Part shown: one piece after another, positions 35,035 to 44,913 of the stretch
How the letters are laid out: every line of letters begins with the position of its first letter
Numbering within the stretch: position 1 is the first letter of the stretch
Origin: Syntrophales bacterium
GTDB taxonomy: Bacteria > Desulfobacterota > Syntrophia > Syntrophales > UBA8958
DNA length: 64,000 nucleotides
Assembly (NCBI GenBank): GCA_026416455.1
Contig: JAOAFE010000001.1
Coordinates: 1 to 64,000 of the forward strand
Direction of reading: 5' to 3'
The notes under the pieces: model-generated
Databases searched by the model: none
Told to the model about the DNA's origin: nothing
What the model saw: only the letters and a program-made list of their open reading frames with translations
Made by a program: the position numbers and the translations under genes

Positions 35035-36117
35035 ATGAGGGAAAACTTTTTTGCATCGCGATCAGGGATCGTTGTAGTCGGTGTAATAATAGGAATTTCA
35101 GCAGCTTGGTTGCAATATTTAGGGAATCCTGCCAATATGGGGATCTGTGTGGCCTGTATGGAAAGGGATATTGTGGGGGCCTTGGGTTTTCATCGAGCGT
35201 CGGTCGCCCAGTACTTGCGACCGGAGATAATGGGTTTCGTGTTAGGCTCTTTTTTTGTCTCTCTTCTGGCTGGTGATTACCGTCCTCGAGGTGGCTCTGG
35301 CACCCTAATTCGTTTCTTTCTGGGCATGTTTGCCATGATTGGGGCTTTAGTGTTTTTGGGATGTCCTTGGCGAGCACTACTTAGACTCGCTGGAGGTGAT
35401 GGCAATGCTATCTTTGGGCTTCTCGGATTGATTGCAGGGGTTTTTTTGGGGGTGCAATTCTTGAAAAGAGGCTACAATCTGGGGCGTTCCTATCCTCAAC
35501 ATCGAGCAAGTGGATGGGTTTTCCCAGCCCTCATGGTAGTTCTTCTATTTCTCCTCGTCTTTCGCGTGTCCTTTAGCCCAGGAGGCCCGATCTTCTTCAG
35601 TGAGAAAGGCCCCGGCTCTCAGCATGCACCGCTTTTAGTGAGTTTGGCTGCGGGGGTTATCATCGGTGGTCTGGCGCAGCGGAGCCGTTTTTGTACGATG
35701 GGGGCTATTCGAGATGTGATATTGATACGCGATTTTCACCTGCTCAGCGGCGTGGGGGCCTTGGTTGCGGGAGCTTTGATAATGAACATTGTTTTGGGAC
35801 AGTTTAAACCAGGCTTCACTGGTCAGCCGGTGGCTCACGATAACCAGCTGTGGAATTTTTTAGGGATGGCTTTAGCGGGACTTGCCTTTGTTTTGGCGGG
35901 GGGATGTCCCGGCCGTCAGCTGTTCCTTTCAGGTGAAGGAGATATGGATGCGGCCATCTTTGTTTTGGGGATGATGGTTGGAGCGGCGGTGGCTCATAAT
36001 TTGAACTTTGCCAGCTCTCCGGTAGGGATTGCGCCTTTTGCGCCTATTGCTGTTTTGGCGGGTTTTGTATTCTGTTTCGTCGTAGGTCTAACCCAGCGAG
36101 AAAGGCTTAATTTATGA
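35035..36117 (+). CDS. yedE: YedE-like (YeeE/YedE family) membrane transporter, selenium-type
   Basis: 360 residues with about nine to ten membrane helices in two YeeE/YedE halves. Conserved Cys sites are GICVACMERDI, VFLGCPWRALLRLAGGDGNA, RSRFCTMGAIRD and LAGGCPGRQLFLSGEGD, which in this family pass a thiolated or selenium-containing anion. It starts a tight cluster with a TusA-like protein, a class V desulfurase and DUF3343, the set known from selenium-metabolism loci (YedE/YedF). Transport of selenium rather than thiosulfate is inferred from that context. No selA or selD is in the window. Confidence 0.85.
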   Translation: MRENFFASRSGIVVVGVIIGISAAWLQYLGNPANMGICVACMERDIVGALGFHRASVAQYLRPEIMGFVLGSFFVSLLAGDYRPRGGSGTLIRFFLGMFAMIGALVFLGCPWRALLRLAGGDGNAIFGLLGLIAGVFLGVQFLKRGYNLGRSYPQHRASGWVFPALMVVLLFLLVFRVSFSPGGPIFFSEKGPGSQHAPLLVSLAAGVIIGGLAQRSRFCTMGAIRDVILIRDFHLLSGVGALVAGALIMNIVLGQFKPGFTGQPVAHDNQLWNFLGMALAGLAFVLAGGCPGRQLFLSGEGDMDAAIFVLGMMVGAAVAHNLNFASSPVGIAPFAPIAVLAGFVFCFVVGLTQRERLNL

Positions 36118-36132
36118 GAAAGGGGCTATAAA

Positions 36133-36345
36133 ATGGGAGCACGCCGAGTGGATGCGCGGGGGCTTTCTTGCCCGCAGCCAGTTATCATGGTTGATCGAGC
36201 GCTGAAGGAGGGAAATGGGCATTTAGAAGTATTGGTGGATAATGAGGTATCGAAAGAAAACGTGCTACGGTTCTTGAATAAACGAGGATTTCACACTGAA
36301 GTCGAAGAAGAGGTTGGTTCAATAGTAATCAAGGCGATGAAATGA
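36133..36345 (+). CDS. TusA/SirA-like sulfur (selenium) carrier, YedF-type N domain
   Basis: 70 residues. ARRVDARGLSCPQPVIMVDR carries the CPxP motif whose Cys holds a persulfide or perselenide, and the sequence ends in the usual beta-strand region (VEEEVGSIVIKAM). It is shorter than YedF, which has an extra C-terminal DsrE-like domain. Likely it relays sulfur or selenium between the desulfurase (4-bp overlap downstream) and the YedE-like transporter (16 bp upstream). Confidence 0.9.
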   Translation: MGARRVDARGLSCPQPVIMVDRALKEGNGHLEVLVDNEVSKENVLRFLNKRGFHTEVEEEVGSIVIKAMK

Positions 36346-37508
36346 TTTATTTCGATCACGGCGCCACCTCTTTCCCGAAACCGACCGTAACCGTAGAAGC
36401 AATGGTTCGTTATCTCACGGAGATAGGAGGATCGCCTGGTCGGTCGGGTCACAGCATGTCCATTGAAGCGGCGAGGATTGTTAACGAAGGAAGAGAAGTA
36501 TTGGCCCGACTTTTCAACATCAAAGATCCCTTTTGCATAGTATTTACAAAAAATGCGACGGAAGCTATTAACATGGCCTTGTTCGGGATTCTACGCCCAG
36601 GGGATCACGTGGTTACGTCCAGCATGGAACATAATAGCCTCATGCGGCCCCTTAGGTACTTGGTCAAGCAGGGAGTAGAATTAAGTGTGGTGCCCTGTGC
36701 GAGGGATGGATCTTTGGACCCACTTCGCTTAAAAGAGGCTATGCGGTCATCGACAAGGTTGGTAGCCGTCACTCATGCCTCCAACGTGACGGGCACGGTG
36801 ATGCCAATCGCAGAAATAGGCCATATTCTCAGATCTTATCCCCACACCCTCTTTCTCGTTGATGCCGCACAGACGGCTGGCGTTCTTTCCATTGACGTGG
36901 AAGCCATGGCCATAGATTTTCTTGCCTTCACGGGTCACAAATCTCTTTTCGGACCCCCCGGAACGGGTGGGCTGTACATCAGGGCGGGATTGGAAGCGGA
37001 GATGAAACCATTGATGATGGGTGGGACGGGAAGCCGATCAGAATTTGAAGAACAACCGGAGGTGATGCCGGATAAATTTGAGTCAGGTACCCCTAATACA
37101 GTAGGAATCGCCGGTCTGGCAGCTGGTGTCGGGTATGTCTTAGCGGAAGGGGTAGAAAAAATAAGAAAAAAAGAAGAGTCGTTGACAGAAAAGTTTTTAA
37201 GTGCTCTGAAAGACATGGGACGCCACATTGAGGTCTATGGTCAAAAGAGAGGAAAAGACAACATTGCAGTCATTTCCTTCAATGTACGGGGCTTGACTCC
37301 GTCTTATGTCGCCCAGGTTCTCGATGAAAACTGGGGTATTATGTGTCGTCCAGGTCTTCACTGCGCACCATCCGCCCACCATACAATAGGTACCTTTCCT
37401 CAGGGAACGGTGCGCTTCAGTTTCGGTTATTTCAATACCGATGAAGAGATAGAGACGGCGATAAGAGCTTTGAGCACTTTGATTGGAGAAAAGGGGAAGC
37501 AAGGTTGA
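36342..37508 (+). CDS. Class V aminotransferase, cysteine desulfurase/selenocysteine lyase-like
   Basis: 388 residues. It starts MIYFDHGATSFPKPTVTVEA. TGHKSLFGPPGTGGLYI contains the PLP-binding Lys, and MCRPGLHCAPSAHHTIGTFP holds the catalytic Cys in the loop seen in the TIGR01977-type desulfurase family. VDAAQTAGVLSIDVEAMAID carries the PLP Asp. It releases sulfur from cysteine, or selenium from selenocysteine, to a carrier. The overlaps with TusA-like and DUF3343 genes (4 bp each) suggest these are its partners. Confidence 0.9.
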   Translation: MIYFDHGATSFPKPTVTVEAMVRYLTEIGGSPGRSGHSMSIEAARIVNEGREVLARLFNIKDPFCIVFTKNATEAINMALFGILRPGDHVVTSSMEHNSLMRPLRYLVKQGVELSVVPCARDGSLDPLRLKEAMRSSTRLVAVTHASNVTGTVMPIAEIGHILRSYPHTLFLVDAAQTAGVLSIDVEAMAIDFLAFTGHKSLFGPPGTGGLYIRAGLEAEMKPLMMGGTGSRSEFEEQPEVMPDKFESGTPNTVGIAGLAAGVGYVLAEGVEKIRKKEESLTEKFLSALKDMGRHIEVYGQKRGKDNIAVISFNVRGLTPSYVAQVLDENWGIMCRPGLHCAPSAHHTIGTFPQGTVRFSFGYFNTDEEIETAIRALSTLIGEKGKQG

Positions 37509-37729
37509 CTTCCGATTCATACGCGGTCGTTCTCTTTGAGTCCGTAAGCCACGCTATTAGAGCAGAAAAGCTAGTAAAAGAGGCGGGTTTGCCCTGTAAA
37601 TTGGTGCCTGTGCCTCGCCAGTTGAGCTCAGATTGCGGAATTTGTCTTCGGTTTTCTGCCGGACAAGAAGAGGAAGTAAACCGTATCTTAAAAGGCAAGC
37701 TACCGGGGTTTGTTATTGCTCGCTTGTGA
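37505..37729 (+). CDS. DUF3343 small protein
   Basis: 74 residues from a TTG that overlaps the desulfurase stop (TTGA). It reads SYAVVLFESVSHAIRAEKLV then GLPCKLVPVPRQLSSDCGIC, the DUF3343 pattern with conserved Cys residues near the middle. Function unproven. It follows class V desulfurases in selenium-type clusters, and the Cys residues suggest a sulfur/selenium acceptor or a desulfurase activator. Confidence 0.85.
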   Translation: MTSDSYAVVLFESVSHAIRAEKLVKEAGLPCKLVPVPRQLSSDCGICLRFSAGQEEEVNRILKGKLPGFVIARL

Positions 37730-37735
37730 ACTTAA

Positions 37736-37764
37736 TTGACAGGTGGGCCTTTCTGTTTTATAAG
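37736..37764 (+). promoter_or_regulatory. Near-consensus sigma-70 promoter for the B12-controlled TonB gene
   Basis: A perfect TTGACA (37736-37741) is 17 bp from TATAAG (37759-37764). The predicted start near 37771 falls right at the 5' end of the first riboswitch. The promoter begins 7 bp after the DUF3343 stop. Confidence 0.7.
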
Positions 37765-37770
37765 AAAAAA

Positions 37771-37930
37771 ACACGGCCGCCTGATGATTGGGAAGAGGGG
37801 TGCAAATCCCCCGCTGCCCCGCAGCCGTGAAGGGAACGAAAGCCCGTTAAAGCCACTGCCGTAAAAGAGACGGTGGGAAGGTGGGCAAGTAGGTGTTGGG
37901 CCCGGAGCCGGAAGACCGATCAGGCGGATG
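37771..37930 (+). promoter_or_regulatory. Cobalamin riboswitch, copy 1
   Basis: It carries the B12 riboswitch core in order: GGGAAGAGGGGTGC, the CCCCGCAGCCGTGA element, AAAGCCACTGCC, GGTGGGAAGGTGGGC, then GGAGCCGGAAGACC (B12 box). A closing P1 helix pairs CCGCCTGAT (37777-37785) with ATCAGGCGG (37919-37927). The 5' side is compact, with little room for the usual P3 hairpin. Together with copy 2 it should sense adenosyl- or other cobalamin to control the TonB receptor. No strong terminator follows it. Confidence 0.88.
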
Positions 37931-38014
37931 ACCTCGCGGGAGGGAAGAGGTGATCGACACCAAGTCCTATCAAAGACCAGAGTATATCCCCGGTCGAAGT
38001 GTAATCGATTTTTA

Positions 38015-38170
38015 TCCGTCGCAGATGGAAGCCGGTGAGAGGCCGGCACTGCCCCGCAACTGTATGCGGAACGAAATCCCGCAAATGAGCCACTCGGGTT
38101 TTAATATCCCGGGGAAGGGAGGGAGAGTAGGTAACTTATGCCGCAAGTCAGGATACATCTGCCTCGGAGA
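38015..38170 (+). promoter_or_regulatory. Cobalamin riboswitch, copy 2
   Basis: A second full core follows 85 nt after the first: ATGGAAGCCGGTGAGAG, CCCCGCAACTGTATGCGG, GAGCCACTCGG, CCGGGGAAGG and AGTCAGGATACATCTGCC (B12 box). GCAGATG (38021-38027) pairs with CATCTGC (38156-38162) as an outer helix. Between it and the receptor ATG, CCTCGG (38162-38167) can pair with CCGAGG (38187-38192), 7 nt before the AAGGAGG ribosome site, so translational control is likely. Confidence 0.88.
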
Positions 38171-38212
38171 GTAAATACCAATATCCCCGAGGGGGGAGAA
38201 GGAGGTTATCGC

Positions 38213-40258
38213 ATGGGTTTCAGGTTAAGTTTTTGGTGCGTATTGATGTCTTTAATCTTTTTTGTCGTGCCCAGTTGGGGAAGTAAAACTATTTCTGCAG
38301 ACACGGAAGCAGTCTTGGGAGAGATCGTCGTTACGGCGACTCGAGAAAAAGAGGAAGTAAGACGCATACCAGCTCATATTACGGTAATAACGGAGGAACA
38401 AATCAAGGCGTCCGGGTCTTCAACCTTAATTGAGGTCCTCAATCGGGTAGAAGGTATTCATTTTCGAGATTACAGTGGTAATTCCCCTCAGGCGCTCATA
38501 GATATGCGCGGATTTGGTGGCGATAACCCATTCGGAAAGACGGTTGTCTTGCTGAACGGCCGCCGTCTGAACCGCCCGGATATGAGCTCTATTAACTGGT
38601 TAGAAATCCCCATAAGTCAAGTAGAGCGAATTGAAGTGATGCGAGGTACTGGCAGTGTCCTTTACGGTGATGGTGCCGTTGCAGGAGTGATCAACATCAT
38701 CACGCGAGAGGGGCGGGGGAAACCTTCGGGCGGGGTATCGGCCCTATTAGGTAGTTACGGACTTCATGACGAGAGGCTTTGGGTTAGTGGGGCCAAAGGC
38801 CGTCTCTCTTATGCCGTCTCAGGTACTAATCGCTTCAGTTTTGGTTATCGGGAGCGTTCTAAATCTTCATTTCAAAGCGGCGCTTTAGATTTAGGTTTCC
38901 AATTTTCGGAACGAAATCGGTTATCCTTTGGCGTAGATTTTTCTCAAAACAGATACGAGTTGCCGGGTGCCTTAACGAAGGCCCAGATGGCTATAAATCG
39001 GCGCCAGTATCAACCCGGTCATGATAACGATGAAGGCAAGGATAGGGACGGGGGTATAAACGTAAGTTGGGAGAGCGACTTCGGCTCTATGGGCCGCTTT
39101 ACTCTCCAATTTACCGAGGCTTATAGGGATCAGGAAACTAATATGGATTCTTGGTGGCAATGGACGAACGTTCATATGAGAAATAGAGAGCTTAAACCCC
39201 ATTACGTGTGGGATAAGCAATTTTCACCACACCTGAAGAACAAAATAGCCTTTGGCCTTGATTGGAGAAAAGAGCCTTATAAAAAAGATATCTACAACTC
39301 CCGAGAGAGGAAGAAAAAGACTGCGTGGGCGGAGATGGAAAAGGAAAGTCTAGGATTTTACATTCGCGATGAAGTGACAGTTCTGGATCGATTGATTTTT
39401 GCGGCTGGATATCGGAAAGAGAGGGCGGGTATCGAAGGGTCTTATACTGATATTTTCAGCCCTCCCGATTGTTTTTACGATCGCGAGAAAATATACCATG
39501 CTGAGGCATGGGAGGTGGGCATTACCTACCTATTAGGGAAAAAGTCAAAAATCTACAGTCGCTATTCGACCGTCTATCGCTTTCCTTTTTTGGATGAAGT
39601 GGCATCTATTTCTGGTTTTCCAGGGACAGGATTTCTCACCAGTTTAGAGAAGGAAAAAGGAAAATCTTGGGAAGCGGGTTTTGAGGTGTCTCCGATTAAA
39701 GACCTAAAGTTGAGTGCGGCTCTGTACAGAATAGATATGAGTGATGAGATAACGTATGTGGGCATTTTCCCAGTCGGTTTTAATCAAAATATCGGTAAGA
39801 GCCGCCATGAAGGGATAGAGTTTAATTTCTCTTGGCAACCCATAAAATACTTTGGTCTATATGGTAATACCACTTATCAGAAGGCGACTTTTGAAGACGG
39901 GCAGTTCAACAAGAAAGAGCTGCCTCTCGTACCCAATCGGAAGGCCAATCTCGGTCTCAAACTCATTCTCCCATACGAGATCACTTTAAAACCGGAAATC
40001 CAGTATGTAGGAAGTGCTTTTCTTTCTCAGGACAATGCCAATACGGGAGAGAAGCTTGGTTCCTATACGTTGATCAATGCCTATCTCGAATATAAGCCAA
40101 AAATAAAGAATTTCACGGCCAACATCTTTTTGGGAGTGGAAAACATAACAGGTGTGGAATACGAATCCTTCGGCATCGATATGAGGCCCTGGTCGGCTAA
40201 CGCCTATTATCCTATGCCCAAAACCACATTTAAAGCTGGGTTATCTTTCAATTTCTAA
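38213..40258 (+). CDS. TonB-dependent outer-membrane receptor, BtuB-like (probable cobalamin/corrinoid uptake)
   Basis: 681 residues from the ATG at 38213 (AAGGAGG site). A signal peptide (about 1-23) is followed by a TonB-box-like EIVVTATREKEEV and a plug domain with VNIITREG-type (GVINIITREG) and VERIEVMRGTGSVLYGDGAV motifs. A 22-strand barrel ends in an aromatic (LSFNF). The tandem cobalamin riboswitches make a corrinoid the likely substrate. No BtuCDF transporter is in the window. A strong terminator follows. Confidence 0.9.
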   Translation: MGFRLSFWCVLMSLIFFVVPSWGSKTISADTEAVLGEIVVTATREKEEVRRIPAHITVITEEQIKASGSSTLIEVLNRVEGIHFRDYSGNSPQALIDMRGFGGDNPFGKTVVLLNGRRLNRPDMSSINWLEIPISQVERIEVMRGTGSVLYGDGAVAGVINIITREGRGKPSGGVSALLGSYGLHDERLWVSGAKGRLSYAVSGTNRFSFGYRERSKSSFQSGALDLGFQFSERNRLSFGVDFSQNRYELPGALTKAQMAINRRQYQPGHDNDEGKDRDGGINVSWESDFGSMGRFTLQFTEAYRDQETNMDSWWQWTNVHMRNRELKPHYVWDKQFSPHLKNKIAFGLDWRKEPYKKDIYNSRERKKKTAWAEMEKESLGFYIRDEVTVLDRLIFAAGYRKERAGIEGSYTDIFSPPDCFYDREKIYHAEAWEVGITYLLGKKSKIYSRYSTVYRFPFLDEVASISGFPGTGFLTSLEKEKGKSWEAGFEVSPIKDLKLSAALYRIDMSDEITYVGIFPVGFNQNIGKSRHEGIEFNFSWQPIKYFGLYGNTTYQKATFEDGQFNKKELPLVPNRKANLGLKLILPYEITLKPEIQYVGSAFLSQDNANTGEKLGSYTLINAYLEYKPKIKNFTANIFLGVENITGVEYESFGIDMRPWSANAYYPMPKTTFKAGLSFNF

Positions 40259-42459: not shown

Positions 42460-43311
42460 TCATCGTGAGGTATTACGGCCACTCCAGGTCGACCAGGAGA
42501 GGGCTAAGAAATAGGCGATGCCTGTAAGAATTATTGTTACAGCACCCGCTGGCAGATCGGGCCCATAACTTAAGATTATTCCGCCGATGGTGAAGGCGGT
42601 GGTCAGAAAAGCAGACATCAACATGAGTTGCCACATACGCCTGGTGAATATGCCGGAGATCGCAACGGGCAAAGTAAGGAGGGCAATGGCCATTACAATG
42701 CCTACGACGGTAACGAGAAGAACGACGGTCAACGCTGTAAGACCGATAAAAATTAAATGGTAAGAATCTACTTTTACTCCTCGCAGGCGGGCAAACTCCT
42801 CATCAAAAGAAAGGGCAAAAAATTGATGGTAGAGAACGAAGCTACATACGATTATCACGGCATCCAGAACAGCAATTAATATTAAATCTTTTTCCGATAC
42901 CATAAGGATGCTGCCGAAGAGATAGCTCATGAGATCTTCGCTAGAACCCGGCGTTCGAGCGATGAAGATAATTCCTATGGCCATACCTATAGCCCAAATG
43001 GCGCTAATTACTGTATCTTCCCTTTCTCTAGCTTTAATGCTGGTCCAGCCAATAACGAAAGCGGCCAGAAGGGCAGCTCCTATGGCACCGTAGATTGGAT
43101 GAAGCCATTCGAGATGGTAGACTCGCTCAAAGTATCTCGCAATCCCCAATCCACCTAAAACGGTGTGAGCAATGCCACCGGCCACATATGAGATACGTCT
43201 CGTTACGATGTAACTACCCACTATGCCACAAGGGATACTAACGAGAATGGCTGTCCAAATAGCGTGTTGAAGGAATGCGTGCATCTTAAGATCGATAAAG
43301 AATTGGGTCAT
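42460..43311 (-). CDS. znuB: Zinc/manganese-type ABC transporter permease (ZnuB family)
   Basis: 283 residues with about eight to nine membrane helices. HAIWTAILVSIPCGIVGSYI, RRISYVAGGIAHTVLGGLGI and ALLTLPVAISGIFTRRMWQL are ABC-3 family motifs. It forms the inner-membrane channel for a divalent metal imported from the periplasm, with the ATPase 4 bp upstream. Zinc over manganese is favoured by the upstream regulator but is not proved. Confidence 0.9.
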   Translation of the reverse strand: MTQFFIDLKMHAFLQHAIWTAILVSIPCGIVGSYIVTRRISYVAGGIAHTVLGGLGIARYFERVYHLEWLHPIYGAIGAALLAAFVIGWTSIKAREREDTVISAIWAIGMAIGIIFIARTPGSSEDLMSYLFGSILMVSEKDLILIAVLDAVIIVCSFVLYHQFFALSFDEEFARLRGVKVDSYHLIFIGLTALTVVLLVTVVGIVMAIALLTLPVAISGIFTRRMWQLMLMSAFLTTAFTIGGIILSYGPDLPAGAVTIILTGIAYFLALSWSTWSGRNTSR

Positions 43312-43315
43312 AGAC

Positions 43316-44053
43316 TTACCCTCCGTGTCGATGCTGGACCATTCTTACACTGCCACCGTATAGTTTGGTGACTACGTCCCCTGTCAGGTGGGCCGTATCG
43401 TGAACCATAACCTCCCGGTTAACGCAGATTACTTCTTTGACATATTGGGAGACGAAACCGAGGTCGTGCGTTACCACTACGCAAGTCATCCGCTCGCTCA
43501 TTTCGGACAAAAGATCGAAAAGGTCTATTTCTGCCACCGTGTCTACATTGGTCGTAGGTTCATCAAGCAGGAGAAGCTCTGGATCGGTGACTAGGGCTCT
43601 GGCAATGAGGACACGCTGGCGCTGCCCCCCGGAAAGACTGGCAAAGTGCCGGTGAGCGAATTTTTCCATCCCTAATCGGGTTAGGGCTTCCATGGCTTTC
43701 TCCCTTGTTTTTTTCCCGAAAGGTCCAATGGGGCGGTTATTTTTCAGCAAACCCATAAGGACGATATCCATCACCGTTGCTGGGAAGTGGGGATCGAAGT
43801 GCAGGTGCTGAGGCATGTAGCCGATGAAAGGCCTCGCATTTTCTGGAGTAGTGCCTAGAACTTCTATGCTTCCCCTCGTGGGCTTAAGCAGTCCTAAGAT
43901 GAGTTTGATGATAGTTGTTTTACCTCCACCGTTAGGCCCGACGATCGTGGTGAAGGTATGATGCGGAATAGAAAAGGTGGCGTTCACAATCACTGGAGAG
44001 CCGGTATAGGTGAAGTTTACCCGATGAAAAGAAACGGCGATCTCTTCCGTCAT
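43316..44053 (-). CDS. znuC: Zinc/manganese-type ABC transporter ATPase (ZnuC family)
   Basis: 245 residues. Walker A GPNGGGKTTIIKLILGLLKP, signature LSGGQRQRVLIARALV, Walker B LLLLDEPTTNVD, followed by VVTHDLGFVSQYVKEVICVN. The C-terminus keeps the short His-containing end (MVQHRHGG) seen in some ZnuC proteins. It overlaps the substrate-binding-protein gene by 4 bp and drives metal uptake with the ZnuB-type permease. Confidence 0.92.
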   Translation of the reverse strand: MTEEIAVSFHRVNFTYTGSPVIVNATFSIPHHTFTTIVGPNGGGKTTIIKLILGLLKPTRGSIEVLGTTPENARPFIGYMPQHLHFDPHFPATVMDIVLMGLLKNNRPIGPFGKKTREKAMEALTRLGMEKFAHRHFASLSGGQRQRVLIARALVTDPELLLLDEPTTNVDTVAEIDLFDLLSEMSERMTCVVVTHDLGFVSQYVKEVICVNREVMVHDTAHLTGDVVTKLYGGSVRMVQHRHGG

Positions 44054-44913
44054 TTTAAATGCTCCCGAATCGAAATGGCTATTTTTGTCAAGTTATTGGT
44101 ATAATCAAAAGCTAGAGGGTCAAGAAAAACGACTTGTGCCTTAACGGCGTGAGCAATAGCTTGAACACCTTTAGGTGAGAACTGAGGCTGCGTAAAGATG
44201 GCCCTTATTCCATCTTTTTCCGCTTCTGAGATTATACGCGCCAGGTAGCGGGGAGATGGCTCTTTACCCTCCACTTCTATTGGAACCTGCTTCAGTCCGT
44301 AAGCGTCGGCAAAATAGCCGAAAGCAGGGTGAAATACGTATATCTTTTTCCCTTTTAAGGGATTTAAGAGGCGCTTTATCTGCCCATCCAAACGATCCAA
44401 TTCCTCTAAAAATACCTTTAGTTGGTGGGAAAATCGCTCAGCCGAATCAGGAGCCAGGCGGACTAAAGCCCATTGAATGTTTTGGGCGATGATTTTTACC
44501 CGTTGGGGATCAAGCCAGATGTGTGGATCTGGTCCCGAGTGATGACCAGCAGACTCCATCTTTCTCATCTCTACGCCCGCCTGGGTTGGGATGATGAACA
44601 AATTTTTATTGATCTTCTTTACCCTAGGTAAAATTGCATCTTCCACCGCGACCCCGATCGTAAAATATGCCTGAGCTTCACTCAGAAGGGCGATTTGTCT
44701 AGGAGTGGGTTCATAGACGTGTGGTGACATGTGGGCGGGGATTAGCACATGAACGGAGCAACGCTCACCGCAAATCTTGCTAACAAAGTAGGCCTGAGGT
44801 GCTATGGTAACAAACACGGAAAGCTTCTTTTGTCCTTGAGACCAAGCAGATTGAGGTGAAAGCAGGAAAAAAAGAACTATGATAATCGATACTATCCCTA
44901 TTTTTTTAATCAT
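44050..44913 (-). CDS. znuA: Metal ABC transporter substrate-binding protein (ZnuA family)
   Basis: 287 residues. A signal peptide (about 1-26) is followed by the cluster A-I fold with metal ligands in PAHMSPHVYEPTPRQ (His), DPHIWLDPQRVK (His), VFHPAFGYFADAYG (His) and a late FLDPLAFDY (Asp). The His-rich loop between the first and second ligand is short (GHHSGPDPH). Captures zinc or manganese in the periplasm. Gene order regulator-A-C-B-small protein implies one operon. Confidence 0.9.
   Translation of the reverse strand: MIKKIGIVSIIIVLFFLLSPQSAWSQGQKKLSVFVTIAPQAYFVSKICGERCSVHVLIPAHMSPHVYEPTPRQIALLSEAQAYFTIGVAVEDAILPRVKKINKNLFIIPTQAGVEMRKMESAGHHSGPDPHIWLDPQRVKIIAQNIQWALVRLAPDSAERFSHQLKVFLEELDRLDGQIKRLLNPLKGKKIYVFHPAFGYFADAYGLKQVPIEVEGKEPSPRYLARIISEAEKDGIRAIFTQPQFSPKGVQAIAHAVKAQVVFLDPLAFDYTNNLTKIAISIREHLK

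Follow-up and report, generated by a model that had tools for sequence, protein, structure and literature searches.

Two cobalamin riboswitches in series before a btuB-like gene of a Syntrophales bacterium, probably joined by loss of btuC and btuD

Background

Tandem cobalamin riboswitches account for less than 1% of such leaders (PMC2258182), and 26 AdoCbl riboswitch doublets are recorded in a 2022 survey (PMC9481103); a preliminary description of the present locus called same-class cobalamin tandems uncommon, which agrees with both figures, yet such tandems are documented. The documented doublets (PMC9481103, PMC2258182) consist, like the pair described here, of two complete RF00174 elements that share a leader and are not separated by a gene; their members are treated as independent riboswitches, each with a platform of its own, with terminators in the Desulfobacca case. 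Another described system with a resemblance to ours is M. tuberculosis ppe2 (PMC11260477), in which translation of a short ORF in the leader is likewise gated by a B12 riboswitch; ppe2 has one riboswitch, a proposed class IIb variant, whereas the present locus has two RF00174 elements whose coupling is hypothetical only.

The pair lies in the first 64,000 nucleotides of contig JAOAFE010000001.1 (assembly GCA_026416455.1), a stretch here called the window (Table 1). Compared with the documented doublets, both of its platforms look translational, no terminator separates the elements, and the two differ in ancestry. The pair joins the known tandem AdoCbl riboswitches, and its origin is unusual.

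Table 1. Features of the locus (window coordinates) and other close RF00174 tandems of the phylum (coordinates of their own loci)
Feature	Position	Strand	Basis or remark
Promoter-like site, TTGACA-17 nt-TATAAG	37736..37764	+	Read from sequence; 11/12 consensus positions
RS1, A-type cobalamin riboswitch (leads btuC-btuD in relatives)	37765..37938	+	RF00174, A clade
RS1 L5, CCCGC	37818..37822	+	Exact complement of L13 GCGGG 37936-37940; putative kissing loop
RS1 expression platform, hairpin GAUGACCUC-GCGGGAGGGAA-GAGGUGAUC	37927..37955	+	Local fold
74-codon open frame, GTG start	37950..38174	+	Through nearly all of RS2 to TAA 38172-38174
RS2, B-type cobalamin riboswitch (leads btuB in relatives)	37980..38180	+	RF00174, B clade
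RS2 expression platform, UCCCCGAGGGGGGAGAAGGAGG	38181..38209	+	Sequence; same pattern in relatives
btuB-like TonB-dependent receptor, 681 aa, intact	38213..40258	+	Plug and TonB_dep_Rec_b-barrel domains
Tandem cobalamin riboswitches, L041	3908-4397		
Tandem cobalamin riboswitches, L042	4610-4106	-	
Tandem cobalamin riboswitches, L142	1014-1597		
Tandem cobalamin riboswitches, L143	613-1206		
Tandem cobalamin riboswitches, L144	1884-2348		
Tandem cobalamin riboswitches, L145	3760-3251	-	
Tandem cobalamin riboswitches, L146	3441-2833	-	

Two complete cobalamin riboswitches in one leader

Both elements are full-length matches to the RF00174 covariance model (model positions 1-189), RS1 at 78.6 bits (E 1.1e-17) and RS2 at 79.8 bits (E 5e-18) against a gathering score of 31.5, and an Rfam search of the whole genome returned these two elements only. 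The preliminary description was right that two complete cobalamin riboswitches stand in series before a single TonB-receptor gene, and both of them, not just one, clear the threshold of the model it had proposed as a check. The two same-class elements share one leader with no ORF between them, their matched domains lying 41 nt apart; the spacing of 85 nt first reported does not hold for these domains and would be the core-to-core distance. The RS2 match ends 32 nt before the btuB-like start, and the stretch originally singled out ends on that start codon, at 38213. A permissive scan of 37500-38500, from which lower clan matches were dropped, gave RF00174 as the best of its clan at both places, and both elements fit this standard model end to end, which argues against the suggested variant class, whether RF01689 or new; the compact 5' side that had been taken as a sign of such a variant is, for RS1, also seen in the riboswitches that lead btuCD in relatives. 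Folded whole by minimum energy, the elements did not clearly outperform shuffled sequences, and these folds were left out as evidence.

In relatives, a riboswitch here called RS_A heads btuC (FecCD) and btuD (ABC ATPase, ABC_tran), and a second, RS_B, follows btuD and heads btuB. Of the ten same-family genomes examined, five (G001, G002, G003, G008 and G010) have the arrangement RS_A-btuC-btuD-RS_B-btuB, which also occurs in other families of the order, and a sixth has btuD-RS_B-btuB at a contig edge. Variant orders are found in named Syntrophaceae genomes: L061 carries tonB and btuF between RS_A and btuC, and RS_A was not detected in L062. RS1 and RS2 are direct counterparts of RS_A and RS_B in these Syntrophales-type operons, from which the present locus differs in having neither btuC nor btuD, and it is because those genes are absent that RS1 and RS2 are neighbours. 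A separate observation concerns the relatives themselves: in 6 of 14 (L046, L048, L050, L052, L061 and L062) the btuD frame ends 27-96 nt inside RS_B, with several ends falling at its conserved CAACTGTAG/CAACTGTGA core, so that these bases belong to a coding sequence and to an aptamer at once, and translating ribosomes would run into the latter.

A maximum-likelihood tree of 40 riboswitches places RS1 inside the A (btuCD-leader) group (100/100) and RS2 inside the B (btuB-leader) group (100/99), each along with the second element of one other tandem. The two are 53% identical, and a tree constrained to make them sisters is 38 log units worse and is rejected by the AU test (p 0.007). RS1 has in common with RS_A the features GAAGAGGGGTG...CCCCCGCTGCCCCGCAGCCGT, GAGCCGGAAGACC and CCTCG.GGGAGG; those common to RS2 and RS_B are GGAAGCCGGT, CAACTGT and CCCGAGGGGG..GGAGG. 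Since the clades differ and sisterhood is rejected, the tandem is best regarded as a fusion of two old leaders and not as a duplication, an origin that the tree and AU test reject. RS1 keeps 89 of the 92 A-invariant positions (97%) and is therefore not visibly decaying; RS2 keeps 66 of the 74 B-invariant positions (89%), and at least one of its losses, in P3, is apparently compensated.

Expression platforms, leader frame and receptor gene

Contact between L5 and L13 is a known mechanism of translational cobalamin riboswitches. A pseudoknot of the C-rich loop has been described for cobalamin riboswitches (PMC2258182). By eye, RS1 has a C-rich L5 and an exactly complementary L13, and its platform forms a local hairpin (-11.5 kcal/mol, z -2.3) with a Shine-Dalgarno sequence, GGGAGG (37938-37943), in the loop and a GTG start codon in the 3' arm; the CCUC..GGGAGG core is common to nearly all RS_A of relatives. 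RS1 thus retains the A-type platform together with a start codon at btuC spacing, and it keeps in this Shine-Dalgarno the former btuC ribosome site, now an orphan. The local fold of the RS2 platform is weak; its G-run at 38191-38196 can pair, again by eye, with L5 CCCC at 38052-38055 (CCCC/GGGGGG), the btuB Shine-Dalgarno AGGAGG follows at 38200-38205, and relatives share the pattern CCCG.GGGGG..GGAG. Both elements have platforms; that of RS1 guards the orphan ribosome site and not that of btuB, which only RS2 directly overlooks. A plus-strand scan found no intrinsic terminator after RS1 or RS2, the only T5 run, at 38009, lying inside RS2; with no terminator between the elements, RS1 lacks a direct route to btuB.

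The GTG at 37950 lies 6 nt after the RS1 Shine-Dalgarno and opens a 74-codon frame whose stop is 38 nt before the btuB ATG. Its peptide has no protein family match. In most RS_B of relatives, one frame or more contains no stop or a single one, and because such frames are common there, the openness of this one was dropped as evidence of selection. That the 74-codon frame derives from the BtuD tail was considered and rejected, since 231 of 500 shuffles score as high as its best score, which is therefore not significant. The linker holds no clear btuC or btuD remnant; one linker frame resembles the BtuD tail, with 5 of 500 shuffles reaching the mean score and three frames tried, which is suggestive only.

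A near-consensus promoter had been proposed ahead of the first riboswitch, and we find the same site (Table 1), with transcription predicted to start at about 37771; a consensus scan missed it for the sole reason that the scan requires the second hexamer, here TATAAG, to end in T. TTGACA is also present upstream of RS_A in several relatives. The receptor is 47-52% identical to several receptors behind btuCD in relatives and scores below the cut-off of the NCBIfam BtuB model TIGR01779 (138 bits vs 600), and its assignment as btuB rests on the riboswitch and on the synteny of relatives.

Other tandems in the phylum

Seven further close RF00174 tandems were found in the phylum, with gaps of about 91-221 nt (Table 1). 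Each of the seven has a strong terminator hairpin with a T-run after its first element (placed, in L145, where the second match begins) and a ribosome-site-type leader after its second; about five (L041, L042, L143, L144 and L145) stand before a TonB-receptor-like gene, judged by position and sequence. RS1, unlike these first elements, does not end in a strong intrinsic terminator, and the linker is 41 nt. The cobalamin tandems of the phylum thus split into two types, a common one in which a terminator precedes a ribosome-site leader, and the one described here. The terminator after the first aptamer that marks a bi-mechanism tandem is absent from the plus strand between RS1 and RS2. In its accessible part, the published list of bi-mechanism tandems names only SAM classes and not AdoCbl (PMC9481103), so the seven terminator-plus-ribosome-site tandems may merit a study of their own.

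Origin of the pair

We hypothesize that the ancestor had the order RS_A-btuC-btuD-RS_B-btuB, in which either riboswitch masked the ribosome site of the gene or genes behind it, and that btuC and btuD were deleted in this lineage, which would have left RS_A (now RS1) and RS_B (now RS2) in a single leader, RS_A first and 41 nt away. In our view it is probable that the two leaders came together ahead of the remaining btuB when btuCD was lost. The junction is known from one genome, and we infer the deletion event itself, the directly established facts being the presence and separate ancestry of two riboswitches, the order in relatives, the absence of BtuC and BtuF from the assembly and the lack of an intervening terminator. 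Our literature search brought up no relevant account of tandem riboswitches arising by gene loss. Loss of intervening genes between separately regulated parts of a cluster would be a route by which tandem riboswitches are born, and in this case relatives still show the ancestral order.

Two other origins deserve consideration. Duplication of one riboswitch, with the copy kept for a steeper, pseudo-cooperative response as in TPP and other tandems, would fit the existence of tandem AdoCbl doublets (PMC9481103) and the expectation that two aptamers for one ligand steepen control, but the low identity of RS1 and RS2, their different clades and the rejected sisterhood, together with the lack of a terminator after RS1 when the seven other tandems have one, make it extremely unlikely. 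It is also very unlikely that the pair is an assembly artefact that lost whatever stood between RS_A and RS_B: metagenome-assembled genomes can lose sequence between repeats, and RS1 and RS2 do have short exact words in common, but a join at a common word would have left one chimeric riboswitch, where the contig has two complete elements and a linker, the site is well inside a contig of more than 114 kb (match at 113.7 kb), and BtuC and BtuF are absent from the entire assembly. Loss of btuC and btuD remains our preferred reading.

The B12 genes of the genome, which is 95.8% complete, bear on this reading in both directions. Within it BtuC was not found, the only match to FecCD being a weak one to the ABC-3 permease at 42460-43311, and neither was a BtuF-type binding protein; CbiG and CobS were likewise not found in the genome. 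A BtuR adenosyltransferase, MetH-like proteins and methylmalonyl-CoA mutase proteins are present, as are two TonB C-terminal domains. Taken together, the presence of MetH-like, methylmalonyl-CoA mutase and BtuR proteins and the non-detection of CbiG, CobS, BtuC and BtuF point to a B12 user that seemingly makes none and apparently does without the usual inner-membrane importer. The lack of BtuC and BtuF and the continued use of B12 speak for the deletion; such an organism would be odd, and this counts against it, as does the chance that btuCDF sits in the roughly 4% of the genome that the assembly lacks.

Possible coupling of RS1 and RS2

Ligand binding and translational control, which we infer for both elements, would make RS2 a direct OFF switch of btuB, the AdoCbl-bound L5-L13 contact keeping the btuB Shine-Dalgarno closed. 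RS1 would be an intact OFF switch that now gates only the orphan ribosome site, and any effect it has on btuB would be a mild one, exerted by ribosomes that pass over RS2; it may have none. The steeper response or the combination of two corrinoid forms suggested in the preliminary description would be speculative for this leader, in which neither element is followed by a terminator and RS2 alone directly overlooks the btuB ribosome site. It is quite possible, if somewhat short of an even chance, that RS2 alone regulates btuB and that RS1 is a fossil left in the leader by a recent deletion: its platform guards no real gene, and the lack of a terminator between the elements leaves it without a direct route to btuB. 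RS1 is, on the other hand, better conserved at its clade-invariant positions than RS2, the supposed working switch, for which a recent deletion would equally account.

Alternatively, following the same gene loss and as a functional refinement of it, not another origin, the two elements may act as a serial switch through translation. The frame is open through RS2, so ribosomes let in by an empty RS1 would disrupt RS2: they would translate the frame, melt RS2 and keep btuB open, whereas a bound RS1 would prevent translation and allow RS2 to fold, bind and shut btuB. The receptor gene would then be off only with both elements bound, giving a steeper response or a higher threshold. This arrangement is consistent with the good Shine-Dalgarno and its GTG at 6-nt spacing, with an RS1 that shows no decay and has a strong local hairpin, with the entry of btuD itself into RS_B in the six relatives mentioned above, and with the precedent of a translated leader under B12-riboswitch control in M. 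tuberculosis ppe2 (PMC11260477); against it, an open frame is often expected by chance, as the RS_B of relatives indicate, the peptide matches no family, and the frame is known from one genome. We consider the serial switch unlikely, though not far-fetched. A same-ligand, two-aptamer gate that lacks a terminator, was created by gene loss and is wired in series by ribosome traffic, with RS1 setting the translation of a leader frame that disarms RS2, is a quite unlikely outcome when claimed in full. If RS1 does still act, the locus offers a test case for coupling of riboswitches through translation.

Neighbouring genes

Elsewhere in the window, a ZnuABC-like metal ABC transporter (ABC-3 permease, ATPase and ZnuA-like binding protein) is encoded on the minus strand at 42460-44913. 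Upstream of the promoter, the cluster at 35035-37729 encodes a YedE-type putative selenium transporter, a protein resembling cysteine desulfurase/selenocysteine lyase, and a 74-aa protein that has no family match and that we take to resemble DUF3343. Together they point to a unit for the trafficking of selenium or sulfur.
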